IMG/VR virus record: IMGVR_UViG_3300045110_000206
Span: 1-30,669 of that record
Source: a virus
Reading direction: 5' to 3' (one strand)
DNA length: 30,669 nt
In this document: in pieces, positions 117 to 27,199 of the stretch
Position numbering within the stretch: position 1 is the stretch's first letter
Layout of the letters: each line of letters opens with the position of its first letter
Notes under the pieces: generated by a model
What the model saw: only the letters and a program-made list of their open reading frames with translations
Database searches by the model: none
What the model was told of the DNA's origin: nothing
Position numbers and translations under genes: made by a program

Positions 117-151
117 ACTGTATCAACCATAGATGAGAAACCGCCGAACGA

Positions 152-238
152 AACCGCCGATAGCCGGACAGATGAACGCCGATAACGATTCATATGTTTC
201 ATTCCTATCGGCGTTCATCGCTTGTTCTATCGGCGGTT
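152..238 (+). repeat. 87-bp composite palindrome, copy 1
   Basis: Nested inverted repeat. Outer 12-nt arms are at 152-163 (AACCGCCGATAG) and 227-238 (its reverse complement). Inner 14-nt arms are at 171-184 (GATGAACGCCGATA) and 206-219 (perfect reverse complement), around a 21-nt A/T-richer centre. All four arms share the core CGCCGATA. A further half-copy of the outer arm lies just outside at about 139-150. The element fills most of the gap between two minus-strand genes. A second copy lies in the opposite orientation at 5462-5548 and matches at 80 of 87 positions. The design resembles REPIN or MITE elements or a multi-site protein-binding region; function unknown. Confidence 0.9.
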
Positions 239-249
239 CCTCGTCTGTC

Positions 250-1653
250 CTACTGCGGAATAAGGAATGGCGCACGCCGCGACAAGGCCAGCGTAAAGCT
301 GATCTGCGCTGCGGCGGTCGTATCCCACGGACGCCAGAGCGTGCCCTGCGTGGTCAGCCACAGCGCGGTCATCACAGCCTCTTTGCTGACCAGGTAGGCG
401 TCGCCGTTGATCGGCCACGGCTCATCGGTGCCGGTCGTCGCCTCGCGGCCGATGACCCCCGGCGCCACCTGGGTCAGACTCTGCGGGTCGTACACGATGC
501 TGAGCGGGCTGGTCGCAGATATGCCATTAAACGGGACGTAGGCCGTCGGATCACTTACGGATGCGACCACGCGCGCGTCGCTCGCGTTGTTCAGCGCGAT
601 GCACGCCACCACGTCGATATCGATCGTGCTGTTGAACCACTCCGTGATGATCATGACCTTGGTGGCCGGCGATGCCGGCGGCATATCAATAATGCCGAGA
701 AAGACCGGCTGCGGAATGCCGGCCGTTCCAAAGTAGGTATCGCTAATCGGGACGATCGGGCCAAGGATCGGCAGGCTATTCCGAAACAACACCGCCTGCA
801 TGGTGTCCGCGCCCGTCGGCGTGGCGTTGATCCGAATGGTCGCGAACACCGCCACCTGAAAGGCGTTGGCCGCAAACGGCGCGGAGAACGCCTTGTCGAG
901 CTGGAGCGACGCTGGCGGAGCCGACAGGCGCATGACGCTCCCGGCCGAGGCGTGCGCCGCCGCGTCAGCGGTGCTGGTGGCGGTGCCGGTGCCGCTCTTG
1001 GTCATCGTCTCGGCCTCGATCAGCTCGATCCGATTCTGCGGCGCGATCAGGAGATACCCCAGCTGAAACGCCAGCGCCGAGCGCTGGAGCGGGCCTGAGA
1101 GCGTCGCGACCATCGGCGTCAGATGGTCGACCGCGCCGGCCGCGAACGTCGCGGTCAGCACGCTCGGCATGCCTGCCGTGTTGGAGGTTGCGGTCTGCGT
1201 CGCGCCCTGAAACAGCGGGCCGCGCACGAACGACAGCGTAATGTTCTGGATGACATACTTACCGAAATGCTCATGCCAGATCGGCGGCAGCGTCAAACCG
1301 GCCGGCGCGCCAGGCGCACGCCCGCGCACGAGCGCGACCACGGGGCTGGTCAAGGTCGAGTCCTGCGCCACGGCGCGGATCGTCACGGCGCTGACCTTTT
1401 CGCCCTGCCACCAGCGAAAGGCCTGCTCCAGCAAGGTCTGAAGCTTGTCGGCGGCGGTGTAGGCTAAGGCGGCGGTCGTGCCCATGGCATGCACGGTGAT
1501 CGTGTCGGTCGCCACGTCATACGGCCCCTGACTGCCGAGCAGGCTCTCGCGGAGCGGCGCAATCGTCGGTGCGTAACTCACGAGCGCATAGCTGATATTG
1601 TCGGTCAGCTCCAGCGCGGTTGTCCCATCCGTGATTTCTAAGAAACTCAGCAT
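250..1653 (-). CDS. Putative distal tail (Dit-like) protein
   Basis: 467 aa, translated immediately after the tape measure gene (TGATG overlap at 1653-1655). In siphoviruses the gene directly downstream of the tape measure usually encodes the distal tail hub protein, and the length fits a Dit with an extra domain. The N-terminal half (about residues 1-150, including the KYVIQNITLSFVRGPLF stretch) would be the tail-tube-like part. The C-terminal part is rich in beta-prone, Thr/Ala-rich sequence such as would form a jelly-roll. I recognise no catalytic motif. The assignment rests on gene order and general composition. Confidence 0.5.
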   Translation of the reverse strand: MLSFLEITDGTTALELTDNISYALVSYAPTIAPLRESLLGSQGPYDVATDTITVHAMGTTAALAYTAADKLQTLLEQAFRWWQGEKVSAVTIRAVAQDSTLTSPVVALVRGRAPGAPAGLTLPPIWHEHFGKYVIQNITLSFVRGPLFQGATQTATSNTAGMPSVLTATFAAGAVDHLTPMVATLSGPLQRSALAFQLGYLLIAPQNRIELIEAETMTKSGTGTATSTADAAAHASAGSVMRLSAPPASLQLDKAFSAPFAANAFQVAVFATIRINATPTGADTMQAVLFRNSLPILGPIVPISDTYFGTAGIPQPVFLGIIDMPPASPATKVMIITEWFNSTIDIDVVACIALNNASDARVVASVSDPTAYVPFNGISATSPLSIVYDPQSLTQVAPGVIGREATTGTDEPWPINGDAYLVSKEAVMTALWLTTQGTLWRPWDTTAAAQISFTLALSRRAPFLIPQ

Positions 1654-4600
1654 CAGGCCGCCCCCACGCGCATACGTACGTCGGCTTGCCGACCCTCGGC
1701 CGCCAGCCCGGCCTGCACCCCCCGCGTGATGTCGGCGACGGTGAGCGACGACCCGCGCGCGTCGACGTTGATAATCGTCTGCGAACTAACCGCCCCCCCG
1801 CGCCCCAGAGAGCCCAGCTGCATCAGGCTTGGCATGGCGTTTCTGATCGCGCTGGTCGGCGTGACGTAGCTATTGGTCTCAGGCGTCACGATCTCCGGCC
1901 CCCGTTCGCCCACGACATAACTGTCCATCGCTTGCATCGAGCCGCCCGCAGCCTTGCCGCCGCTATCGCCGCCGCCCTGGTGGCGCGGGTTCTGATCCTC
2001 TTCCGTGCGCTGGCCGTGCGACTCGTAGTTCGTGGTCACGGTCGTCGTGATCTGCGTGGGGATGCGCTCCAGGCTCTCGATATAGTGATCGGCGTCCTGC
2101 TTGCCCTCGATAAAATTGTTGGTCTGGGTCGCGACATACTCTTTGGCGTAGTCATCCATCGCCTTCTGCGTATCCTGGGCCGACTGCTGCTCATCGCGCA
2201 GCTTGCCGATCAGGCCGTCGATCGAGCCGCCCGAATCTTTGGCGCTATCATCGATATGCTGCGCCATCCTGAGAAACGTGGTGGCGGTCGAGGACTCCTG
2301 TAGCCCGTACTCTTTTTCCAAGGCGGCGGTGATCTCGGCGGCCTTGTCTTTGGAGATGTTGCCCAATTGCGCTTGCGCCACGGTGTAGTCGATCAACATC
2401 TGGCCCAAATGCTGGGTCTGCGCCGCCTGCTGGCGCGCGTAGGACGATGCCGCCGCGCCCTCCTGGTCGGCGTAGGACTGATTGACCTGCGCGATCTGAT
2501 CGTCAATGCCCTGCTTTTGCTCTTTGGTCGTCGCGTCCTGTTTCTTTTTTTCCAGGTCAGCGATCTTCTGCGCGTGGTCGGCCGATCGCTGCTCGACGCC
2601 GGTTGCGAACTCGCTGTAGCTGGCGGCGTACTTCTGGACGGCATCCTGGCCATCCTGAAACGTCTTCTCGATCTTCTTGCCCAGGTCTTCGATGTCTTTG
2701 GCGGTGAGACTCGTCTGGCCGCTCAGATCCGACTCGGCCGACTGTAACTCGGTCGCGCGCTGGGTCGCGGTCATGGTGTGCGCGGTCTGCTCAATCAGCG
2801 CCTGACTGACCTTGTTGTAGGCGTCGGTCACTTGCACCAGACCATCACGGTGCGACTGGATGGTCTTCAGCTCGGCGTTGTACTGCTCCTCCGAGAGCTG
2901 TCCGGCCGCCATGCGCTTGCCTAAGCTCTCGACCTCGCCCTGAATCTGGTCGCGCAGCACCTGAATCGTCGCGGCGTACGGCTCTAAGGCTTTCTTGGCC
3001 TCGCCGGTCTGGGTGGCGTAGTCCTCGATCGCGAGCGTACTGGCCTCCCACCAGGGCTTGCTATTCAAGAGCTCCTGGGTGGCCGTCTGGACTTTGCCAA
3101 TGAAGTCGTTGTAGGCCAGCACCACCCCGCCGACCGCAACGGCGATCAGGGCGTAGGGGGCTAAGGCCGCCATAATCGCCGCCGCGTTGGCGTAGAACGC
3201 GGCGGCCTGGGCAGCCAGGGCCGGGATGCTTTCGTAGATCGCCGGGATCGCGCTCGCGGTCTGGACAAGCGCGTAGGCGACCAGGGCGGCGGTCACGCCC
3301 GTCAGCGCCGGGATGGCAATGGTCTGGGCGGTTCCAGCGATCTTGGCTAAGGCGGTCTCGCCCTTGATGGTCGCGTCGGCGTAGTCGGTGATCGCGTTGA
3401 TGCCCGTCGCCAGCACATTGACCAGCTTGGTCAGGATCGGCAGCATAGCCGTGCCGACCGTGATTTGAAACGCCTCCAGGCTGCCCATCATATTGTCGAC
3501 CGCGACGTTGAAGCCCTGCTGCTTCTTGGCGGCCTGGACAGCGGCCGAGCCGGCTTTGGCCATCTCCTCGGCCATGTGCTGATAGCCGTCGGCGCCGGCG
3601 TCGGCCAGCATGCCGGCGGTGCGGATGGCGTCCGCCCCAAAGGCGGCGTTCAAGGCCGCGCTCTTCTGGGCCGCGCTCATCCCCTTCAGGCTGTCTTGCA
3701 GGAGCTGCGCAGCCTTGTCCATCCCGATGAACGCGCCCTGGGCGTCGTAGAACTTGGACGTGCCCTCGGCGGTCAAGAGATTCAGGTTCTTGAAGGCCGC
3801 GGCCTGGCTGTCGGTGGTCGGTTGCAACCGGGTGAGGAAGGTCTTAAAGGATGTCCCGGCGTCGGCGGCGCTGCTAAACCCTGAACTGATCAGCGCCATC
3901 GATGTCACGGTCTCGCGAAACGAGAGCCCGGCGATGTCGGCCGACTTGCCACTGTTCGCGAGGCCCAGCGCAAGGTCGTCCACATCCACGGTCGAGGCGT
4001 TCGCGGCCTGCGACAAGAGGTTGACCGAATCCTTGAGGAACGCGGCTTTTTCGTCCGCGCTGGCTGCGCTATCCACCCAGACGCCGAGCTGCTTCGAGGC
4101 AATCTCAGCCGCCTGGGCGATTGACACTTCGCCAGCCGCCGCCAAATTCAGCACGTCGCGCAGGCCGCCGGCGGCGATCGTGGCCGGCTCGATCCCGCCT
4201 TTGGCCATCTCGATCGCGGCCTGCTGCACCTCGGCGGTCGAGACCGGCAGCTCGCGGCCCAGGGAGATGAACAGATCCTTGAACTGGTCGAGCGACTGAC
4301 CGCTTTCGTCCAGGGCGCTGCCGGTCACGCTGGCGAAGCGGTTCATGCCGCTCTCGAAGTCGCCACTGACATTGATGGTGTCGCCGACGAACTTGAGGAT
4401 CGCGCGCCCGGCCTGCTCGGCAGCGTTGGTCAGCAGCACACCGACTTGCCGCGCCGCGCCGACCGCGACTTGCTGCAAGCCGCTGAGGCCTTTGGCGCCG
4501 TCTGCAGCGTCATCACCAAGCTTATCCAGCGCCTTGCCCGCGCCGCCGGCGCTGTCGTCGAGCGCGTTGACGCCTGCTACGGCCGGCGCGGCGGCGCTGG

Positions 4601-4697
4601 CCAGCTTGGTCTCAGCCGCCGCGACTTGCCCCAGCGTATTGAGATAGGCGTCAGCGCCCTGCGCGACGAGATCGATTCCGACCTGTTCCAGAGCCAT
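1653..4697 (-). CDS. Tail tape measure protein
   Basis: 1014 aa, the longest gene of the tail module. It sets tail length and is threaded through the tail tube. Residues about 110-340 resemble the TP901/phage minor-tail core (SVTGSALDESGQ, then NSGKSADIAGLSFRETVTSM and later AGTSFKTFLTRL). About 440-530 is strongly hydrophobic with several membrane-type segments. About 550-760 is Gln/Lys/Glu/Ala-rich and coiled-coil-like. The C-terminus has a Gly-rich QGGGDSGGKAAGGS stretch followed by VVGERGPEIVTP, a motif often found at the end of tape measure proteins. The ATG at 4697 has a GAAGG upstream and overlaps the chaperone extension frame by 47 nt. Confidence 0.93.
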   Translation of the reverse strand: MALEQVGIDLVAQGADAYLNTLGQVAAAETKLASAAAPAVAGVNALDDSAGGAGKALDKLGDDAADGAKGLSGLQQVAVGAARQVGVLLTNAAEQAGRAILKFVGDTINVSGDFESGMNRFASVTGSALDESGQSLDQFKDLFISLGRELPVSTAEVQQAAIEMAKGGIEPATIAAGGLRDVLNLAAAGEVSIAQAAEIASKQLGVWVDSAASADEKAAFLKDSVNLLSQAANASTVDVDDLALGLANSGKSADIAGLSFRETVTSMALISSGFSSAADAGTSFKTFLTRLQPTTDSQAAAFKNLNLLTAEGTSKFYDAQGAFIGMDKAAQLLQDSLKGMSAAQKSAALNAAFGADAIRTAGMLADAGADGYQHMAEEMAKAGSAAVQAAKKQQGFNVAVDNMMGSLEAFQITVGTAMLPILTKLVNVLATGINAITDYADATIKGETALAKIAGTAQTIAIPALTGVTAALVAYALVQTASAIPAIYESIPALAAQAAAFYANAAAIMAALAPYALIAVAVGGVVLAYNDFIGKVQTATQELLNSKPWWEASTLAIEDYATQTGEAKKALEPYAATIQVLRDQIQGEVESLGKRMAAGQLSEEQYNAELKTIQSHRDGLVQVTDAYNKVSQALIEQTAHTMTATQRATELQSAESDLSGQTSLTAKDIEDLGKKIEKTFQDGQDAVQKYAASYSEFATGVEQRSADHAQKIADLEKKKQDATTKEQKQGIDDQIAQVNQSYADQEGAAASSYARQQAAQTQHLGQMLIDYTVAQAQLGNISKDKAAEITAALEKEYGLQESSTATTFLRMAQHIDDSAKDSGGSIDGLIGKLRDEQQSAQDTQKAMDDYAKEYVATQTNNFIEGKQDADHYIESLERIPTQITTTVTTNYESHGQRTEEDQNPRHQGGGDSGGKAAGGSMQAMDSYVVGERGPEIVTPETNSYVTPTSAIRNAMPSLMQLGSLGRGGAVSSQTIINVDARGSSLTVADITRGVQAGLAAEGRQADVRMRVGAA

Positions 4698-4869
4698 GGT
4701 GAGCCTTCAAACTTTGCGCGTAGTGGTCGACCGCCGCAAACCGCATCTCGATCCGGTACTCGGCGACAATCAGCGCCTGGCTATCGCTGTCTAAACTGTC
4801 AAATCGTTCCCACTCCACGCCGCGCCAGCGGGCGGCGCGCAGCAACTCGTAGTCAGCGCTAAAGCCCAT
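4651..4869 (-). CDS. Tail assembly chaperone, second (T) frame
   Basis: 72 codons counted from its first ATG at 4869; the frame is open further upstream and overlaps the end of the preceding chaperone gene in the +1 frame. It contains FSADYELLRAARWRGVEWERF and later YRIEMRFAAVDHY, a size and Trp/Tyr/Arg-rich composition like the T part of gpGT chaperones. No Shine-Dalgarno sequence precedes the ATG, which favours expression as a frameshift extension of the upstream gene. The fusion product would be about 265 aa. It ends 47 nt inside the tape measure gene. Independent initiation at 4869 remains possible. Confidence 0.6.
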   Translation of the reverse strand: MGFSADYELLRAARWRGVEWERFDSLDSDSQALIVAEYRIEMRFAAVDHYAQSLKAHHGSGTGRNRSRRAGR

Positions 4870-4885
4870 CGCGCCAGAAGGCGGG

Positions 4886-5449
4886 TCAAGCGATGGGCTG
4901 AAGAGCGGTTTCCCCTGGTAGGTCGGGTTGAAATCCGGCGATATGCGCTTGGATCGCCGCCTCCTGCGGAGAAGAGCGTTCGAAGATCGCTTTCAGCAGA
5001 TCCGTCCAATCGTCATCGCTGCCGACGCACACAAACGCGACATACACGTAGTGGTCGTCGAAGCCTGCGAGGTCGATCCCCTCGGCCGCCATATCCGCGC
5101 GCACACTGGCCACTGCGGCATGGTCGACCTCGCACACCACGCCGCGTCGGATGGCCAGCCGCTTCAGGCGCAGGCCGGTCTCCTCGTTGACCCGCGCGTT
5201 CCAGTCGCGCTTGAGATCCTGATAGATCGGGTGCGCATAATTCGGGATGGTCACACTGCCATCGCCATAATCGACCGTCGAGGTCGGCGGCTGCGGCTCT
5301 TCAAACCCTACCGCCTGCGTGACCTGACGGCGGGTCTCTTGCCGCAGCAGACTGCTCACTTTGCGAATCTGCACGCTGCGCCCGGTGTCCTGAAACGTGT
5401 GGTCGTACAGCACCTCGGGCGGCGGCGTGCGACCGTTCTTTTGGCTCAT
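4886..5449 (-). CDS. Tail assembly chaperone, first (G) frame
   Basis: 187 aa (MSQKNGRTPPPEV...). The ATG at 5449 has AGGAG a few bases upstream; a longer frame reaching 5506 would begin inside the palindromic repeat and is rejected. It lies between a putative major tail protein and the tape measure, the standard place for the tail assembly chaperone that coats the tape measure before tube polymerisation. The C-terminus (IAGFQPDLPGETALQPIA) overlaps an open +1 frame continuing as GKPLFSPSLDPPSGAMGF. Gene order is the main evidence; the sequence itself shows only a helical, acidic C-terminal half. Confidence 0.6.
   Translation of the reverse strand: MSQKNGRTPPPEVLYDHTFQDTGRSVQIRKVSSLLRQETRRQVTQAVGFEEPQPPTSTVDYGDGSVTIPNYAHPIYQDLKRDWNARVNEETGLRLKRLAIRRGVVCEVDHAAVASVRADMAAEGIDLAGFDDHYVYVAFVCVGSDDDWTDLLKAIFERSSPQEAAIQAHIAGFQPDLPGETALQPIA
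4909..4917 (-). other. Candidate +1 frameshift site GGG-G-AAA
   Basis: Near the end of the chaperone gene the zero-frame codons read CCA GGG GAA ACC. The four consecutive G (4915-4912) let a tRNA-Gly on GGG re-pair one base downstream on GGG, after which AAA CCG CTC is read in the frame that leads into the 72-codon downstream ORF. A +1 (or -2) shift is what the two frames require. The exact slip position is inferred. Confidence 0.4.
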
Positions 5450-5461
5450 GGAAACTCCTGT

Positions 5462-5548
5462 AACCGCCGATGGAACAAGCGATAAACGCCGATAGAAACG
5501 AAACACATGAATCTTTATCGGCGTGCATCTGTCCGGCTATCGGCGGTT
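5462..5548 (-). repeat. 87-bp composite palindrome, copy 2 (inverted)
   Basis: The reverse complement of this segment matches copy 1 at 152-238 at 80 of 87 positions with no gap. Outer arms AACCGCCGAT and ATCGGCGGTT are intact; the inner arms carry two mismatches. An additional outer half-arm, CTATCGGCGGTT, follows at about 5560-5571. It occupies the 5' untranslated gap just upstream of the chaperone gene, ending about 12 nt before its start codon. Confidence 0.9.
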
Positions 5549-5584
5549 CCCGTCTTCGGCTATCGGCGGTTTTGTTTCTTCTGC

Positions 5585-7135
5585 CTACAACACCGGTGAC
5601 TGCCCGATCAGGATAATGCCGTCGACCAGGCCGCCGCCCAGTCCGCTGATCGCGATGTTGTTGGCGGCGACCATGACATCCGGCACGCGCGGCACGGCCA
5701 GGCGGTTCGCGCGCCCGAAGGTCGGCAGATTGCCCGGCAACCGACTGGTGTTGTTCTCGCCCCACAGCGCGCCGCCCATCACGGTCGCAAACAGCGCAGC
5801 GGTCGGCCCGGTGCGGGTCGCGGCGATGTAGCCCGCCTCTGCGGTCGGCCAGACGATATCCTGGATCGCGGTCAGCGCCGCGCCCGGCAGTACCTGTTGC
5901 GTCCACGATGCGCCGCCGTCGAGCGTGTACCAGACCTTGCCGCTGGTGTCGAGCGTGCCCACCCAATACTCCAAGACGGTCTTGACCGCGACGGCGCTGT
6001 GCGCGCCGGTCACGCCCGCCGCCGTCGCCGCCCAGCTCACGCCGCGATTGGTCGACTTGATGATCGTGTTACTCGCGCCCACCGCCAGCAGCACACCGCC
6101 GCCGCCGTGGATGCGGTTGAGGTTGTTGGATGTCGTGCCGGCCGCCGACAGCACGCTGACGCCCGACAGGATGTCGGTTGACAGATAGATGTAGCCGCCA
6201 TCGGCCACGAAGTACACCCGCGAGGGGCTTTCCACGAACATATCGTTCGGCGTTTTGGCCGCGACAAAGCCGCTTGATACCTTTGTCCACGTCCCCGGCA
6301 CGCCGGTCATCTGATTGATCTGACTGACGTAGTAGGCGTTTTCGGTCTTCGAGACCACCACCAGATACTGACCGACGATGTCGATCGCCGTGACCAGACT
6401 GCCGATCGCCAGCCCGGTGATCGCGCTGGCGGCCCAGGTGCGCCCGCCGTTGGTGGTGTACTCGACCACGCCGTTCACCGCCGAGCTGCCGCCAGCGGTC
6501 TGCTGCAATTGGTAGATCCACTGCGTGCCGTCGTTGCCGGGGCCGCAGTCACTGCACTGCGCAAAGCCGCCGTACACGCCATCGACCACCTCGGTGGTCA
6601 CCTCCACCGACGCGACTTCGCCGATCGGGATGCCGCCCACACTGTAGACATCGCCCAGCCACGAGAACTGCACCGCCGCCGTGCTCTCATCACTGCCGTC
6701 AAACGGCGTGCGCCCGGCATAGGTCTTGTCGCTGCTGAGGCCGCGCGACAGTACATTCATGGTCAGCCAGCCGTTGAGCGGATCGGCCGGGTCGTTGCAC
6801 AGCCCCTCCGACTCGTAGATGTTGATCGGGCAGTTGAGCCGAAACTTGTACCACGGAATGCCGCCAAACTTCTGCTTGAAGGTGATCTCGGCGCTCGGAA
6901 TGTCCGGCGCGTCGATCGTGATGCCGGTCTGCTTGAACAGCCCGCGCACCTGCGGGTCGTTCACGTTGATCGCGTTGATGCCGCCGCGATCGGGCCGCGA
7001 GATGTCACCGACCATCAGATACTGTTCGTCCATGCCCGCAAACCGATACGGATTATTCGGAGCCGGGCCGCCGCGCTGGGTGAATGCTCTGATAAAATTC
7101 TGGGTTAAATTTTCGTTCGTCTGCGTCACTGGCAT
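5585..7135 (-). CDS. Putative major tail protein with Asp-box repeats
   Basis: 516 aa, preceded by a strong AAAGGAG Shine-Dalgarno. Residues about 1-185 could form the tail-tube or adaptor part. From about 225 there are Asp-box (BNR, S/T-x-D/N-x-G-x-T/S-W) motifs: YTTNGGRTW near 226, STNRGVSW near 362 and YTLDGGASW near 405, typical of sialidase or Ycf48-like beta-propellers. Position between connector-type genes and the tail chaperone suggests a major tail protein with an exposed propeller domain that may bind glycans on the host surface. A tail spike or a separate virion decoration protein is an alternative. Two Cys (QCSDCG) near 195 are unexplained. Confidence 0.55.
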   Translation of the reverse strand: MPVTQTNENLTQNFIRAFTQRGGPAPNNPYRFAGMDEQYLMVGDISRPDRGGINAINVNDPQVRGLFKQTGITIDAPDIPSAEITFKQKFGGIPWYKFRLNCPINIYESEGLCNDPADPLNGWLTMNVLSRGLSSDKTYAGRTPFDGSDESTAAVQFSWLGDVYSVGGIPIGEVASVEVTTEVVDGVYGGFAQCSDCGPGNDGTQWIYQLQQTAGGSSAVNGVVEYTTNGGRTWAASAITGLAIGSLVTAIDIVGQYLVVVSKTENAYYVSQINQMTGVPGTWTKVSSGFVAAKTPNDMFVESPSRVYFVADGGYIYLSTDILSGVSVLSAAGTTSNNLNRIHGGGGVLLAVGASNTIIKSTNRGVSWAATAAGVTGAHSAVAVKTVLEYWVGTLDTSGKVWYTLDGGASWTQQVLPGAALTAIQDIVWPTAEAGYIAATRTGPTAALFATVMGGALWGENNTSRLPGNLPTFGRANRLAVPRVPDVMVAANNIAISGLGGGLVDGIILIGQSPVL

Positions 7136-9880: not shown

Positions 9881-10155
9881 CGCTTGTTTTCCCACTTTCG
9901 AATGATCACGGCCACGCCCGACAGCGCCAGCCAGGTCAGCCACCAATCGCCTGTCCAATCGATCCACAGCGCGACGGGAAGCGCGATCCACACCGACATA
10001 CAGATGATGCAGGCCAGCCCGCGCCCGATCCAGGTCTCCGGTTTTGCCAGGTTGCGCAGCTTCACAAACATGGAAAACGGCCCTTCCTCATCCGTCAGCA
10101 TCCGCGACAGGCGGTAGACCGCCAGGCTGGCCAGGATGACGGTCAGCGGCTGCAT
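9877..10155 (-). CDS. DUF1360-like membrane protein
   Basis: 92 aa with two or three hydrophobic segments. AVYRLSRMLTDEEGPFSMFVKLR at residues about 12-34 is the hallmark of the DUF1360 family, found in phages and in spore formers; CIICMSVW follows, also typical. GAGG lies four bases before the ATG, and the gene overlaps the isomerase gene by 13 nt. Function unknown in the family. Confidence 0.75.
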   Translation of the reverse strand: MQPLTVILASLAVYRLSRMLTDEEGPFSMFVKLRNLAKPETWIGRGLACIICMSVWIALPVALWIDWTGDWWLTWLALSGVAVIIRKWENKR

Positions 10156-10643
10156 AGCGCCTCGGTCAGCCAGTGGCCGATCGCACTGTGGCAGTCCTCA
10201 ATGATGCCGTAGTGCGTGTGCGGGACGCGCACAACCAGATCGGCATCGACAATCTCTGGAGCAAGATCGCTACTCAGCATCGCCCGCTTCATTCCGTTCT
10301 GATCCGCCCAATCAAGCGCGGCCCACAGATTATTACTTGCGCCGGAGCAACTGATCACCAGCAGCGCATCGTCGGGCCGCGCAAGAACGGCTAACTCATG
10401 TCGTAGCGCCATCCGATAGCTCGTGTCATTCGCCCACGCGGTCAGCACGGCTGGATTGCTGCCCAGCGCCACTATGCGCCGCCCGGCGGCTTTACTCAGG
10501 TCGCAGGCCCAGTGCTGCGCCGTTGACGCGCTGCCGCCGTTCCCTGCCAGCCACAGCGTGCCCTCGCAGGCCTGGACGAAGGCGATCAGCGGCGCAATGT
10601 CGAGGCGTGCGAGCGCCACTTTCAGCTCTTCGATGTAGTTCAC
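10143..10643 (-). CDS. gmhA-like: GmhA-like phosphosugar isomerase (SIS domain)
   Basis: 166 aa with a GTG start overlapping the kinase stop (GTGA). The SIS fold is marked by GNGGSAS at 34-40, a following QH at 43-44, SCSGASNN in the middle and IEDCHSAIGHW at 148-158, as in sedoheptulose-7-phosphate isomerases that make D-glycero-D-manno-heptose 7-phosphate. It is shorter than typical GmhA (about 190 aa), and Asp48 stands where GmhA enzymes usually have a catalytic Glu; that alignment is by eye. Pairing with a heptose kinase-like gene supports a heptose pathway. A generic SIS isomerase is the alternative. Confidence 0.75.
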   Translation of the reverse strand: MNYIEELKVALARLDIAPLIAFVQACEGTLWLAGNGGSASTAQHWACDLSKAAGRRIVALGSNPAVLTAWANDTSYRMALRHELAVLARPDDALLVISCSGASNNLWAALDWADQNGMKRAMLSSDLAPEIVDADLVVRVPHTHYGIIEDCHSAIGHWLTEALCSR

Positions 10644-11560
10644 GAATACACCACCTGGCAGCCCGGCACGCCGACGCGAATCGGCACATGCCGCAGGCCC
10701 AGCGCCGCCACAATCGCCGCGTGGCGCTCAGGCGGCGCGAGAAAGAGCAGGAATCCGCCGCCGCCCGCGCCGCAGAGCTTGCCGCCCCAGGCGCCGGCAG
10801 CGTATGCGGTTCTATACCAAGCGTCTATCTGTGTACTCGCGATGTACTTACGTTTCGTAAGCCACGCGACGTGCATGATCGCGCCGCAGTAGTCAATCTG
10901 TCCGTTCCGTAGTGATTGCGCGAATCTGTGCGCGAGTTGCGCGAGTTGCCGCACGTCGTCACGATCCTGCTGCTGGCTGGCCAGCACCGCGCCCGCGTCG
11001 CCCTGTCGCGCGAGGCCCGTGTCGAGCAACAGGCAGTGCGCAGAGAGTGCGCCCAGGTCGCACACGATCGGATCGACCGCCACGCCGGCGCTGGTGAAGG
11101 TCAACAGGTTCAGTCCACCATAGGCCGCCGTGTACTGGTCTTGCTTGCCGATCGGCTTGTGGCAGCGCTCCATTTCAATCGCGCATGCCCCCTGAGCGAT
11201 TTGCCGCGTTTCAGCCCCAAGCAGGGCGCGTAGCAGCCCCACCGTGAAGCTGCTAGAACTGCCCAGGCCGCTGCCGCCCGGCAGATCGGCGATCGAATGC
11301 ACTTCGATGCCACCCTCGCGCTTCGACCAGCGCAGCGCCTCTCTGATCAGCTCGTGTTGCAGTTCGTCCACCGTCGCGACGTTCTCTGTCAGAGAATACG
11401 CCGCGCGAATGCTGCCGTCGTACTTCGGATTAACCGCCACATAGACATACTTATCAATGGCGGCCGCGACGACCGCGCCCGACTCTTCACTGTAGAAGCT
11501 GGGACGGTCGCTGCCGCCGCCGACGAAGCTGATTCGGAGGGGCGTCTTGGTCACGATCAT
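10640..11560 (-). CDS. hddA-like: GHMP kinase, heptose-7-phosphate kinase (HddA) type
   Basis: 306 aa from the ATG at 11560, five bases after the preceding stop. The N-terminus reads TKTPLRISFVGGGSD, the GHMP motif PGGSGLGSSSS sits at 94-104, GKQDQYTAAYGG at about 138-149 and the C-terminal GKLCGAGGGGFLLF at about 266-279. This set matches D-glycero-D-manno-heptose 7-phosphate kinases and the related L-fucose kinase domain. It would phosphorylate the anomeric carbon before nucleotidyl transfer. No bisphosphate phosphatase (GmhB) or nucleotidyltransferase (HddC) is in the window, so host enzymes would be needed. Confidence 0.85.
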   Translation of the reverse strand: MIVTKTPLRISFVGGGSDRPSFYSEESGAVVAAAIDKYVYVAVNPKYDGSIRAAYSLTENVATVDELQHELIREALRWSKREGGIEVHSIADLPGGSGLGSSSSFTVGLLRALLGAETRQIAQGACAIEMERCHKPIGKQDQYTAAYGGLNLLTFTSAGVAVDPIVCDLGALSAHCLLLDTGLARQGDAGAVLASQQQDRDDVRQLAQLAHRFAQSLRNGQIDYCGAIMHVAWLTKRKYIASTQIDAWYRTAYAAGAWGGKLCGAGGGGFLLFLAPPERHAAIVAALGLRHVPIRVGVPGCQVVYS

Positions 11561-11564
11561 CAGG

Positions 11565-12323
11565 TCACCATGTCTTATGTGCGAACAGGATCGGATCGCC
11601 ATGCAGCGTCGCGGTCTCTTTCACGCCCCAGCCGCCGTAGGGCGGCCCCAGCTCGCCCCAGTGACCGTGTGTCGAGAACGACTGCGGCAACACCACGCGC
11701 GTAAACCCTTCATTGATACACAGATTGAGCGTCCACTGCTGCACGGCGATATGCGCGAAATACGGCGCGGTGTCGAGCCAGCGGCGCAGATACGCCTGCC
11801 AGAGTCTGAGCCAGGTTGAGCGGGTGGCCACCACGCAGCCGGCATTCCCGATCGGGTCACTGGCGCTCGTGTGAAAGAGCGTGCTGATCTCGTCATCGCT
11901 GACCAAGGGCTGAATGCGGCAGAGCTCATTGATCATGTTGTCGCCGCCCGCCTTTGGCTCATTCGGCCCGATGCCGATCTGGCCGTCCTGCCACGCTTGC
12001 AGCCAGGCCCACTCGTCAGCGGTGAAACTGCGCTGCATTTTCACGTCGCCGTCGATGCAGATGATCACCGCGTCATCCGGTGTGTCCAGATACGGCAGCC
12101 AGTTGCCGTGCTGGATGCAGCCGTTGCCGGGGTCGCCGAGCGACCGATCGAGCATGCCGGCCGGGATGGTGTAGCAACGCACCCCCTCGGGACAATCCGG
12201 CCTTTCGCAGCCCACCAGGCCCAGCGCCACGCAGGCGCGACCCGCGTGCCTGCTCAGGTAGTCGAGCGTGCCGATTTCTTTTAGGCGCGGTAGATAGTTG
12301 TGCGTCGCGATCGTCGTGATCAC
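11565..12323 (-). CDS. Glycosyltransferase-like protein, GT-A type
   Basis: 252 aa from a GTG at 12323 that overlaps the methyltransferase stop (GTGA). It starts VITTIATHNYLPRLKEIGTL and has DDAVIICIDGDVKM, with a D-x-D motif after a hydrophobic strand, as in metal-dependent GT-A glycosyltransferases. The C-terminus contains many aromatic and His residues. Placement in the sugar cassette supports transferase activity. The family could not be named. Confidence 0.55.
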   Translation of the reverse strand: MITTIATHNYLPRLKEIGTLDYLSRHAGRACVALGLVGCERPDCPEGVRCYTIPAGMLDRSLGDPGNGCIQHGNWLPYLDTPDDAVIICIDGDVKMQRSFTADEWAWLQAWQDGQIGIGPNEPKAGGDNMINELCRIQPLVSDDEISTLFHTSASDPIGNAGCVVATRSTWLRLWQAYLRRWLDTAPYFAHIAVQQWTLNLCINEGFTRVVLPQSFSTHGHWGELGPPYGGWGVKETATLHGDPILFAHKTW

Positions 12324-12880
12324 GACCGGACGAACACCAGCCCCTGCCGTGTACTGAACGGGTGCGCGCCGTTCGCTCTGACCCAGATTGTCGCTTCGGT
12401 GTCGAGCGCCCATCCGTGCTGCTCCAAAAGACTAATCCAGTACCCCTGCGGCTGACAGTTGACATGGTGCCAGCCAGGAAAGCCCGGCGGCGCGGCGGTG
12501 AGAAAGAGTACTTTGCCGACCGCGAACGTCTGCATAAAATTCGGTATAAATTCGGCCTCGACGTGCTCCACGAACTCCATACACCAGATCAGGCCAAAGC
12601 TGCGCGGCGGGACGAACGGCCCCGTCGTATAGTCGTGAATGATGACGTTCGGCCGCTCCATATGCGGATCGCCGTCAATCCCCCAGGCATCGTAGCCGCG
12701 TTCCGCCGCCGCCTGCACCATGCCGCCCGGCCCACAGCCGACATCCAGGAACGAGCTTTTGCGAAACCGCACGGTCAGATAGTCGAGCGTCGCAGTGTCG
12801 ATATTCGAATTCCCAAAATGCCCTCCCAAATGTGGTGGCAGCGTGCGCTCGGCATCGGTCAGCGGCTGATCGTCGGCCAT
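12320..12880 (-). CDS. Class I SAM-dependent methyltransferase
   Basis: 186 aa. Motif I FLDVGCGPGG is at residues 44-53, an acidic residue ending the second strand is at about 70 (WGIDGD), and WCMEFVEHV at 99-107 matches motif IV/post-IV of sugar or small-molecule methyltransferases. It overlaps the upstream transferase gene by 22 nt and the downstream one by 4 nt. Within the cassette it probably O-methylates a sugar; a nucleic acid or protein substrate is less likely because no such specificity domain is visible. Confidence 0.85.
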   Translation of the reverse strand: MADDQPLTDAERTLPPHLGGHFGNSNIDTATLDYLTVRFRKSSFLDVGCGPGGMVQAAAERGYDAWGIDGDPHMERPNVIIHDYTTGPFVPPRSFGLIWCMEFVEHVEAEFIPNFMQTFAVGKVLFLTAAPPGFPGWHHVNCQPQGYWISLLEQHGWALDTEATIWVRANGAHPFSTRQGLVFVRS

Positions 12881-13512
12881 CCGCGTGCCTTTCGTTCGTT
12901 AAACAGCCGCTGATCGCGCTCGACCTGCGCGCGGCCCTCGGCATACACCCGATCATTATCCCCGCCGAAGTAGGGATGATCGTGATAGAGTGTGGCCCAG
13001 GGCGCTTTGGCGTACAGGCCCAACTCAATTGTCCGCGCACATAATTCCGTGTCGCCAAAGTTGTGGTCGTACCAGACTGGCCAGCCGCCCAGATAGGTCA
13101 GCAGATCACGGTCGATCAGAAAGTGGCAGCTATGCTCCGTCTCGTGATGTCCATCGTTGAAGCCTAATAGGCCGTACTGGTCGAACGTCGCCTGGTACGC
13201 CGCGTAGGCGCGCGCCAGCCAGTGCTGACCCGGCAACAGGTCGTTGGCCAGGTTGACGATCAGATCGAACTCGTGCCAATAGTCGGTTGCCTGCTGAAGC
13301 GCATGCCAGTAGCCGGGTCGCGCGCTATCCATGCGCCAGATCGGCAGATCGGCATTGGCCAGCGCGCCCATCACAGCCGGGTCGCGATCGACCATGCAGA
13401 TCAGCTGCCAGGTTTCTGGCCCTTGCTCCATCCCCGCCGTCGCCAGCAGCCGCTTGACGTTGCGCACGGTCTGCTCAGGGCGGCCGCGGCAGGGCATAAT
13501 CGCGGCGATCAT
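12859..13512 (-). CDS. Glycosyltransferase, GT-A fold
   Basis: 217 aa, ATGA-coupled to the preceding GT2 gene. MIAAIMPCRGRPEQTVRNVKRL is a typical GT-A opening. LICMVDRDP follows as the second strand, and the FDLIVNLANDLLPG segment takes the position of the metal-binding D-x-D region, with ND rather than a canonical DxD. Later, HNFGDTELCARTIELG resembles the ED region of GT2 enzymes. Probably transfers a sugar; substrate unknown. Confidence 0.65.
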   Translation of the reverse strand: MIAAIMPCRGRPEQTVRNVKRLLATAGMEQGPETWQLICMVDRDPAVMGALANADLPIWRMDSARPGYWHALQQATDYWHEFDLIVNLANDLLPGQHWLARAYAAYQATFDQYGLLGFNDGHHETEHSCHFLIDRDLLTYLGGWPVWYDHNFGDTELCARTIELGLYAKAPWATLYHDHPYFGGDNDRVYAEGRAQVERDQRLFNERKARGWPTISR

Positions 13513-14573
13513 CGTCTGGGCCTCAGCACCTTACTTGCCGCGTCGGGCGTCAGCACGTCGGTGGGTTTGAGGATCGGCAGCGGCGTGGGCGGCTCGGGGC
13601 CGTCGAACACCGGAATCACGCGCACCGGGATGCCGTGCTCGATCAGCCAGTCAGCCTGGTCGCGCGTGACATCCTTGTAGCGGTCGATCGCATTGTTGCC
13701 CAAGCGGATCGCGTTCTGCCGATCGGGGTACTCCCAGGTCTGCGCGCCGCGCTCATCGCCCAGGTACTCCACACGCACCTTGCCGTCCGCCATCTCGGCG
13801 GCGTGCGGGAACGGCGCGCCCATGCTCGCATCGCGGGCCACGCCCACAAGTTCGGCGTCGCCGCCACAACATGTCGCCATGGGGATCCTTCCTTCCGTAT
13901 CACGATAGCGGACTAATACCGCCTCCATCAGCTCCTGCGGGCCGCCATAGAAGCGCGTCATCCGATCGCCCTCGTACACGCGATAGGTAAAGATCGGCTG
14001 CGGCAGCCGGTGGCCGCACACGCCGGCCATAGCCAATCGGAGATGAAAGCTCCAGTCCTCCCAGGCGTCCACGCCCTCATCGTAGCCGCCCACCTGGAGC
14101 GCCAGCTTGGTGGGAATAAGCGCGGTCACGACATGGATGTTGTGATGCCGCATGTGGTTTTGCACGTACTCCGGCGCCGGCCGGAGCATTGTGCGCCCGT
14201 CGCGCTCTACGGTGTACGCATCCGCATACACGTAGCCATGGCCGCCGCGCCCGTACTCGCGCAGCAGGTTCTCGACCGCATGGGGTAGGAGATAGTCGTC
14301 GGCGTCCAAAGGGAGAATGAACGCCCCGCGCGCGACCGCTAAGGCCCGGTTGCGCGTGTGCGCCGGCCCGCGCCGCTCGCCGTCACTCGGCAGGATCGTG
14401 ACCCCCTCCATCGGCCCAACATCCGTCCCGCCGTCGCAGGCGATAATCATTTCGCAGCGTGAGGCCAGGCTCTGCCAGGCCACGCTGGCGGCCGCCGTGC
14501 GCGCGTGGTCGGCGTGGCGCGGCTCGCAGGGCGTGATGATCGAGACTAACGGTTGAGCCATCGGCGCCACCAT
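13509..14573 (-). CDS. Family 2 glycosyltransferase
   Basis: 354 aa. PLVSIITPCEPRHADHARTA opens the GT-A fold, MIIACDGGTD is the second strand, and LPLDADDYLLP at about 88-97 contains the D-x-D metal site. WEDWSFHLRL near 171-180 provides the ED motif. The C-terminal about 120 residues are an extra region of unknown function ending in a Pro-rich tail. The GGAAAGG before the ATG at 14573 and overlap with the upstream gene support this start; MAQPLV at 14561 is an alternative. First gene of the sugar cassette. Confidence 0.88.
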   Translation of the reverse strand: MVAPMAQPLVSIITPCEPRHADHARTAAASVAWQSLASRCEMIIACDGGTDVGPMEGVTILPSDGERRGPAHTRNRALAVARGAFILPLDADDYLLPHAVENLLREYGRGGHGYVYADAYTVERDGRTMLRPAPEYVQNHMRHHNIHVVTALIPTKLALQVGGYDEGVDAWEDWSFHLRLAMAGVCGHRLPQPIFTYRVYEGDRMTRFYGGPQELMEAVLVRYRDTEGRIPMATCCGGDAELVGVARDASMGAPFPHAAEMADGKVRVEYLGDERGAQTWEYPDRQNAIRLGNNAIDRYKDVTRDQADWLIEHGIPVRVIPVFDGPEPPTPLPILKPTDVLTPDAASKVLRPRR

Positions 14574-14779: not shown

Positions 14780-14984
14780 CGGCCGCCCTGCCTTCCGCGT
14801 GTGGCTCCCGTTCGTCAAGCAGTCGCGCCAGCTCCGCGATCAGCAGGAACTGGCCATGCCCCGGCGCGCCCGCGTCGAGGTGATCGGCAGCGTACACGCG
14901 CGCGTGCCGGATCTGCGCCAGCTCGCGCGGCGTGAACGCCGCCATCCAGGCTGGTTGTAAAGGTGCCTGGGGTGTGTCGCCCAT
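14772..14984 (-). CDS. Hypothetical small protein downstream of capsid, 70 aa
   Basis: Preceded by GGGAGG and translated after the capsid gene. It reads MGDTPQAPLQPAWMAAFTPRE, then a helical FLLIAELARLLDER. No domain recognised. Position suggests a head accessory protein, unproven. Confidence 0.55.
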   Translation of the reverse strand: MGDTPQAPLQPAWMAAFTPRELAQIRHARVYAADHLDAGAPGHGQFLLIAELARLLDEREPHAEGRAADE

Positions 14985-15008
14985 CGGTTGTTCCTCCCTT
15001 TGGGATGT

Positions 15009-15033
15009 GAGCGGCAGCCCGTTGCCGCCGCTC
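15009..15033 (-). other. Hairpin downstream of the capsid gene
   Basis: GAGCGGC at one end pairs with GCCGCTC at the other, with further pairing inside. It lies in the 72-nt gap between capsid and the next gene and has no T-run. It may stabilise the capsid mRNA 3' end or lower downstream expression. Confidence 0.45.
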
Positions 15034-15056
15034 GTGTCAGTATCCGCCTACCCCGC

Positions 15057-19011: not shown

Positions 19012-19019
19012 AGGAGATC

Positions 19020-19060
19020 AAAAAGGGGCGCTATCCCTCGCTAAAGAGAGACAGCGCCCC
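19020..19060 (-). terminator. Terminator-like hairpin before the protease gene
   Basis: On the minus strand a 15-position stem with two mismatches (GGGGCGCTGTC pairing with the GATAGCGCCCC side) and a 6-nt loop is followed directly by TTTTT. The T-run ends nine bases before the ATG at 19011. It could stop transcription from the head-completion genes, or act as an attenuator controlling protease and capsid expression. Confidence 0.7.
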
Positions 19061-19091
19061 GACTCACGTGTCGTGACGATATGTCAATATG

Positions 19092-19241
19092 TTACTGCTT
19101 AGTATAATCCATTCTGTCAATGGCTGCCGTGCGGCAGCGCGGCGTCCATCCGTAGGCTTCTAGTAGCGCAGTATCGAGCGCTTTGAGGAGCGCGATCAGC
19201 GTGCCGCGAAACAGCAGCAGGGTTGAGAGACTGAGATTCAC
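19092..19241 (-). CDS. Hypothetical mini-protein, 49 aa
   Basis: A GTG start overlaps the upstream stop (GTGA). It begins VNLSLSTLLLFRGTLIALLKAL and ends DRMDYTKQ. Moderately hydrophobic N-terminal helix; no family recognised. The coupling supports translation; it is the last gene before the terminator-like hairpin. Confidence 0.45.
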   Translation of the reverse strand: MNLSLSTLLLFRGTLIALLKALDTALLEAYGWTPRCRTAAIDRMDYTKQ

Positions 19242-24705: not shown

Positions 24706-24711
24706 GATCTG

Positions 24712-24849
24712 CTACGCCTGCGGCTTGCGCTGCCCAAGCACCCACAGGATCGCTTCGTACACTGCGCGCGCGATCACCCAGCCGATCCCCACGAAGAAAC
24801 CGAACAAGATCAGGTTAACCCACAGATAGGCCGTAAAACCAATGTCCAT
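24712..24849 (-). CDS. 45-aa membrane mini-protein, holin candidate
   Basis: Starts MDIGFTAYLWVNLILFGFF after a GGAGG Shine-Dalgarno. One long hydrophobic region (about residues 5-28) followed by an amphipathic helix (YEAILWVLGQRKPQA). It sits between a similar small gene and terS, close to the endolysin. Such small hydrophobic proteins next to an amidase are good holin candidates. Confidence 0.55.
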   Translation of the reverse strand: MDIGFTAYLWVNLILFGFFVGIGWVIARAVYEAILWVLGQRKPQA

Positions 24850-24852
24850 TGT

Positions 24853-24963
24853 TTACCTCCCTCCGAATATCCACCAGACGATCGACCCGGCGGCGTACCA
24901 GATCGCGACCCACAGCAGCGCGCCAAGCGCCATGATGATGATGTGCGCGCGCCGGACGGTCAT
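24853..24963 (-). CDS. 36-aa membrane mini-protein, lysis candidate
   Basis: MTVRRAHIIIMALGALLWVA begins at an ATGA overlap with the endolysin stop and ends GSIVWWIFGGR. One transmembrane helix after a basic N-terminus. Translational coupling to the amidase suggests a lysis role (holin or antiholin), inferred from position. Confidence 0.55.
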   Translation of the reverse strand: MTVRRAHIIIMALGALLWVAIWYAAGSIVWWIFGGR

Positions 24964-27152: not shown

Positions 27153-27199
27153 CAAAACAATCGCCCCGTTCTCGAATTGAGAACGGGGCGATTGTTTTG
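27153..27199 (+). terminator. Perfect 21-bp hairpin terminator
   Basis: Positions 27153-27173 are the exact reverse complement of 27179-27199 around the 5-nt loop GAATT. The stem starts CAAAACAATCGCCCC and ends GGGGCGATTGTTTTG, so each strand ends in an A/T tract with TTTT, as expected of a bidirectional terminator. It follows the rightward coiled-coil gene by about 20 nt. Confidence 0.9.

Follow-up and report, generated by a model that had tools for sequence, protein, structure and literature searches.

Palindromic inserts at two junctions of a phage tail operon, probably ORF-less members of a GxxExxY-type element family

REPINs, which occur with RAYT transposases (Bertels and Rainey, 2011; PMC3116915), are miniature, extragenic, ORF-less inverted pairs that fold into hairpins and spread without an enzyme of their own, and in all of this they resemble the two palindromes that we describe here. 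They differ in that a REPIN pairs two arms, each a REP palindrome in its own right, and is partnered by a tyrosine transposase, whereas our copies have arms of tandem 9-12-mers without self-palindromy and are associated with the GxxExxY family. The intervening sequences (IVS) of 23S rRNA, with their S23p/IVP protein, are alike in having terminal inverted repeats and short direct repeats around one small ORF; RNase III cleaves the stem and mobility has long been suspected (PMC4990558). The study of the Coxiella IVS describes heptameric repeats beside S23p as well as inverted repeats, reports cleavage by RNase III and discusses mobility without settling it (PMC4990558). However, IVS consist of 7-nt units, encode a four-helix IVP protein and are sited in rRNA (PMC4990558), whereas the element studied here, found in a phage operon, has 9-12-bp units and is without an ORF, and does not belong to the IVS/IVP type. 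MITEs of IS elements are likewise small and ORF-less, with inverted ends and empty sites in relatives; in contrast to these, no target-site duplication was seen for our copies, and no parent DDE transposon was identified. We found no published account of these repeats, or of an association of such arms with GxxExxY genes, in the literature searched, which covered few subscription papers and no bioRxiv preprints.

The palindrome pair and its setting

The window is the whole stretch of viral DNA that we analyzed (30,669 nt, IMG/VR record IMGVR_UViG_3300045110_000206). Near its left end, two palindromic inserts lie at two junctions, A and B, of a tail operon of this soil phage whose genes (BNR tail protein, chaperone-like ORF, tape measure protein, tail2 and next gene) are all on the minus strand. 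Relative to transcription, copies A and B are oriented oppositely. The features are as follows.

start at 116, minus strand: next gene, beyond junction B
138..238, plus strand: palindromic insert copy B, core 152-238 plus partial outer unit 138-151; separates tail2 from the next gene
152..184, plus strand: arm of copy B, AACCGCCGATA-GCCGGACAGAT-GAACGCCGATA; identical arm in viral contig L013, few changes in L006 and L014
206..238, minus strand: opposite arm of copy B, AACCGCCGATA-GAACAAGCGAT-GAACGCCGATA
250..1653, minus strand: tail protein (tail2), upstream of copy B; ORF conserved in relatives
1653..4697, minus strand: tail length tape measure protein (TMP), with PHROG hits
4886..5449, minus strand: tape-measure chaperone-like ORF without a family hit, named for its position; downstream of copy A
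5462..5572, minus strand: palindromic insert copy A, between the BNR tail protein and the chaperone-like ORF (core 5462-5548; half arm 5549-5572)
5462..5494, plus strand: arm of copy A, AACCGCCGATG-GAACAAGCGAT-AAACGCCGATA
5516..5548, minus strand: opposite arm of copy A, AACCGCCGATA-GCCGGACAGAT-GCACGCCGATA
5585..7135, minus strand: BNR/Asp-box repeat tail protein, upstream of copy A; weak Pfam BNR hit, conserved in relatives

The sequence-only reading had described the pair as an 87-bp inverted repeat, and we found that 152-238 and the reverse complement of 5462-5548 are indeed identical at 80 of 87 positions (blastn, 92% over 87 bp). The longest inverted repeat in the window is 141-238/5462-5559 (98 nt, 88% complementary), and when gaps are allowed the homology reaches 138-238 and 5462-5572, taking in an incomplete additional unit at one side; each copy has an 87-bp core and measures 101-111 bp when the partial outer units are included. 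Each copy is itself palindromic, with outer arms AACCGCCGATA/TATCGGCGGTT, inner arms CGCCGATA/TATCGGCG and a 21-nt loop. The phage arms have the layout AACCGCCGATA..GAT..ACGCCGATA. The same reading had all nested arms sharing one box, which is true in part: both copies are palindromic with nested arms, but in copy A CGCCGATG replaces CGCCGATA in one outer arm (from 5465). Copy A also has an additional half arm at 5561-5571. The CGCCGATA box occurs 10 times in the window, with 8 of these within the two copies, as compared to a mean of 1.9 and a maximum of 5 in shuffles, and the DNA folding z-scores of the two copies are -8.0 and -3.8. The inverted pair is real and far beyond chance.

That the copies fill the only long gaps holds within the leftmost ~8 kb, where the tail block lies; elsewhere in the window, however, the ORF calls leave gaps of 89-254 nt (for example 14819-15056, 19012-19237 and 24706-24959), some of which small genes may fill. 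Within the tail block, a second minus-strand frame (4690-5449) has no stop between a point within the chaperone-like ORF and the start of the TMP, and its length is conserved in relatives. With GGGGAAA nearby, it is a candidate programmed frameshift of the tape-measure chaperone type.

Filled and empty sites, and copies beyond the phage family

As relatives we used ten phage records from two protein searches of viral contigs. Where the contigs span the gene, identity to the window is 70-99% for the BNR tail protein and 52-93% for the TMP, and the order BNR-chaperone-TMP-tail2-next gene is kept, in one orientation, in all relatives as far as the contigs extend. Junction B measures 133 nt in the window as compared to -4 to 6 nt in L143, L144, L146, L147, L148 and L150, and in three of these six the stop and start overlap. 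Junction A measures 135 nt in the window as compared to 9-10 nt in L144, L146, L148 and L153. Because both junctions are near-empty in relatives, the phage family gets by with neither palindrome, and it is well supported that they are insertions at gene junctions. The relatives are too diverged to fix the borders of the inserts or a target duplication, and no target-site duplication is evident at the junctions in this comparison.

Other relatives carry different sequence at junction A. In L143 and L145 there is a different palindrome with repeated AGCTGAT/TCAGCTC-type units (7-mer arms), and in L149, L150 and L151 the junction is GC-rich, 106-119 nt long and, as judged by eye, has inverted ends. 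Since the palindromes there differ, at least two families of short palindromic insert are tolerated at junction A. Relative L218 has two AGCTGAAAGCTGA-type palindromes located elsewhere, and in relative L202 a short-unit palindrome at 543-627 (GATGAGC/TTCTTCG-type 7-mers) overlaps predicted ORFs and is not in a clear gap.

Further copies are present in four other soil viral contigs (full in L006, L008 and L014, half in L013), and a large related family is present in bacteria. The four contigs share little with the window (~40% identity, two proteins), and the gene contexts of the copies differ. When the six copies are aligned, the AACCGCCGAT and ACGCCGAT units are invariant, the middle units are variable and the loops differ in both length and sequence; conserved arms with variable loops are how a mobile palindrome recognized via its arms should look. 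INPHARED phages contained no similar DNA. In bacterial genomes, at least 120 stretches have the half-arm pattern, and while some of these are coding, many are full palindromes (for example AACCGCCGATAAACGCAGATGCACGCCGATA...TATCGGCGTTTATCCGCGTGTATCGGCGGT). A stricter arm pattern gave 1-40 hits in 20 of the 26 bacterial genomes checked and its reversed control pattern gave 0, and related palindromes are spread over many bacterial phyla. No gene of note, and in particular no transposase, recurs within 1.5 kb of the bacterial copies. The exact phage arm subfamily has no copy in 400 Chloroflexota genomes or in 396 genomes of one class, and in the bacterial genomes searched it was never seen with a GxxExxY gene. 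A distant capsid relative (35%) lies in one Chloroflexota genome, and Chloroflexota may, as a weak guess, include the host. In L164, L167 and L251, from Geobacter-like genomes, palindromes with this type of arm follow one another in tandem at a spacing of ~130-270 bp, some of them beside GxxExxY genes.

GxxExxY and IVP genes between palindromic arms

That GxxExxY genes are found close to repeats of this kind was a suspicion that served as a lead, and we tested it. The GxxExxY domain (PF13366) is present in 17 of 20 arm-bearing genomes (up to 15 copies) as compared to 3 of 14 controls, groups that are not phylum-matched, and in 49 of 251 Chloroflexota, a comparison that is likewise not phylum-matched. 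To score flanking arms, we oriented each locus by its gene and measured the inverted-repeat score of upstream versus downstream sequence, with the 99th percentile of 745 control ORFs as the threshold. We found that 41 of 54 GxxExxY genes have flanking inverted arms at or above this threshold: 21 of 26 from arm-bearing genomes and 20 of 28 from a Chloroflexota sample that was not selected for arms. Ten genes in each of the two groups score above the highest null value. The GxxExxY ORF fills the loop, with a median of 4 nt from its stop to the right arm and 32 nt from the left arm to the domain; an in-frame ATG lies inside the arm in 8 of the 41, and in L241 the arm encodes MNTDLHR. The enclosed proteins match TIGR04256 and retain D...ExK as in PD-(D/E)XK nucleases; a search for a solved GxxExxY structure found none.

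It is arm similarity that would tie the phage element to these genes. In L238 and L241, the GxxExxY gene is enclosed by CCGAT-type arms that resemble the phage arms, and in L321, the only viral contig with a GxxExxY gene that we saw, the gene lies inside CCACGGATGAACACGG-type arms. In L243 and L251, the gene is found between the palindromes of an array and not in a loop. A first-unit motif of the tandem 9-12-bp units, ACCRC..GA, is present in all phage arms, 39 of 82 GxxExxY arms and 0 of 34 IVP arms, counts that are descriptive because the motif was picked by eye. No GxxExxY ORF lies inside the loop of the window copies, and since this loop is just 21 nt, they can only be ORF-less derivatives.

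Genes for the 23S rRNA intervening-sequence protein (IVP, PF05635) behave similarly, with 17 of 29 at or above the same threshold, and their arms are built of 7-mers such as TCAGCTA or GTTGACA. At junction A, L143 and L145 have palindromes that resemble members of this IVP class lacking the ORF. Several Chloroflexota genomes (G044, G054, G090, G098, G106 and G146) have several GxxExxY genes each and are often rich in IVP (PF05635) genes too, with as many as 22.

Origin of the inserts

The reading that we prefer, at a probability of roughly 0.62, is that the two copies are ORF-less, non-autonomous members of GxxExxY-type palindromic elements and were probably acquired from the host. The arms of this family consist of 9-12 bp units, the first typically ACCRCNGAN and later ones ACRCNGAN, and the family occurs in many bacterial phyla. 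Complete members hold a GxxExxY gene (TIGR04256/PF13366, PD-(D/E)XK type) in the loop, and in short members, such as these two, nothing but a variable loop lies between the arms. Recognition of ACGCCGAT-type units in an extruded or single-stranded hairpin would fall to the GxxExxY nuclease, or to a host factor that uses the same arms, and the recognized element would be moved or copied into intergenic DNA that permits it, in trans as well. In mRNA, each copy forms a strong stem that RNase III possibly cuts, as it is known to do in 23S rRNA intervening sequences; such cutting would be a tolerated side effect and not a switch. We infer the role of GxxExxY as mobilizer; it could alternatively be a passenger or a domesticated partner, and because a passenger gene would look identical, the gene-in-loop picture does not single out a mobilizer.

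It is unlikely that the copies instead came from the host as REPIN-like or IS-derived MITEs, mobile through a RAYT (Y1) or DDE transposase, with a likeness to GxxExxY arms that has nothing to do with mobilization by GxxExxY. An insertion of REPIN/MITE-like kind had been proposed by the sequence-only reading, and in kind this is borne out by the empty sites in close relatives, the copies in other phages and the large bacterial family: the copies are small, palindromic, extragenic and dispersed, they have no ORF and both filled and empty sites among relatives, as MITEs in the broad sense do, and REPINs likewise fold into hairpins and are non-autonomous (PMC3116915). However, they are not REPINs in the strict sense, as their arms are not self-palindromic REPs but tandem 9-12-mers starting AACC, which need two arms together to fold and have no GTAG/CGTC-type end tag. 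Nor does a transposase recur within 1.5 kb of the bacterial copies; GxxExxY is consistently enclosed instead.

We also regard it as quite improbable that the palindromes serve the phage at the RNA or DNA level and were selected at these junctions, for example as RNase III sites, translation modulators or protein-binding sites. As RNA the two copies do form strong stems (folding energies of -45.2 and -35.8 kcal/mol, with z-scores of -8.2 and -4.6), copy A stops just short of the ribosome-binding region of the chaperone-like ORF, most CGCCGATA boxes of the window (8 of 10) are in the copies and several relatives have some palindrome at junction A. Yet close relatives have 9-10 nt at A and no palindrome at B, the same palindromes lie at other genes in other phages and in bacteria, the terminator signal is not above chance and the palindromes match no Rfam family. 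The suggestion of a conserved regulator or replication region is not upheld either, because in relatives the sites are empty or occupied by unrelated palindromes; a local effect of the copies on mRNA may nevertheless exist. The remaining proposal, a phase switch in which the 5.2-kb block flips between the inverted repeats, can draw on two near-identical copies in inverted orientation, but its probability is close to nil, because gene order and orientation are the same in the relatives wherever this can be checked. Most relatives also miss one or both repeats, an inversion would set the TMP and the chaperone-like ORF against the operon, and no invertase or recombinase was recognized among the proteins searched (a subset of the ORFs). 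We rejected two further candidates: intrinsic terminators, as terminator-like matches are no more frequent than in shuffles and the U-run is absent after copy A, and a tRNA/att site, as no tRNA was found.

Beyond the GxxExxY-type origin of the two copies, a wider reading is tentative and falls somewhat short of even odds: GxxExxY proteins may be the enzymes of a widespread, unrecognized class of palindromic mobile elements, IVP with 7-mer arms may be a sister class, and miniatures of both may invade phages at the same junction. Many genomes have annotated GxxExxY proteins that carry no assigned function, and short palindromes of tandem units are a widespread kind of repeat that lacks an explanation. 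If the two belong together, each gains a testable role: the protein as a nuclease-like partner of a palindromic substrate of its own, and the miniature derivatives as forms that reach phages. The phage family, with natural empty and filled sites and two palindrome classes at one junction, makes insertion preference and effects on tail-gene expression testable.

Elsewhere in the window, 27153-27199 is a perfect 21-bp inverted repeat with a 5-nt loop (CAAAACAATCGCCCCGTTCTC...), and similar perfect hairpins with the core GGTTCTC...GAGAACC are present in relatives (L202:7413-7453, L214:1950-1990 and L214:5918-5962). The block at 10143-14573 contains an SIS-isomerase-like ORF, a GHMP kinase (Pfam) and glycosyltransferase-like ORFs, which suggests phage-borne sugar or glycan metabolism.
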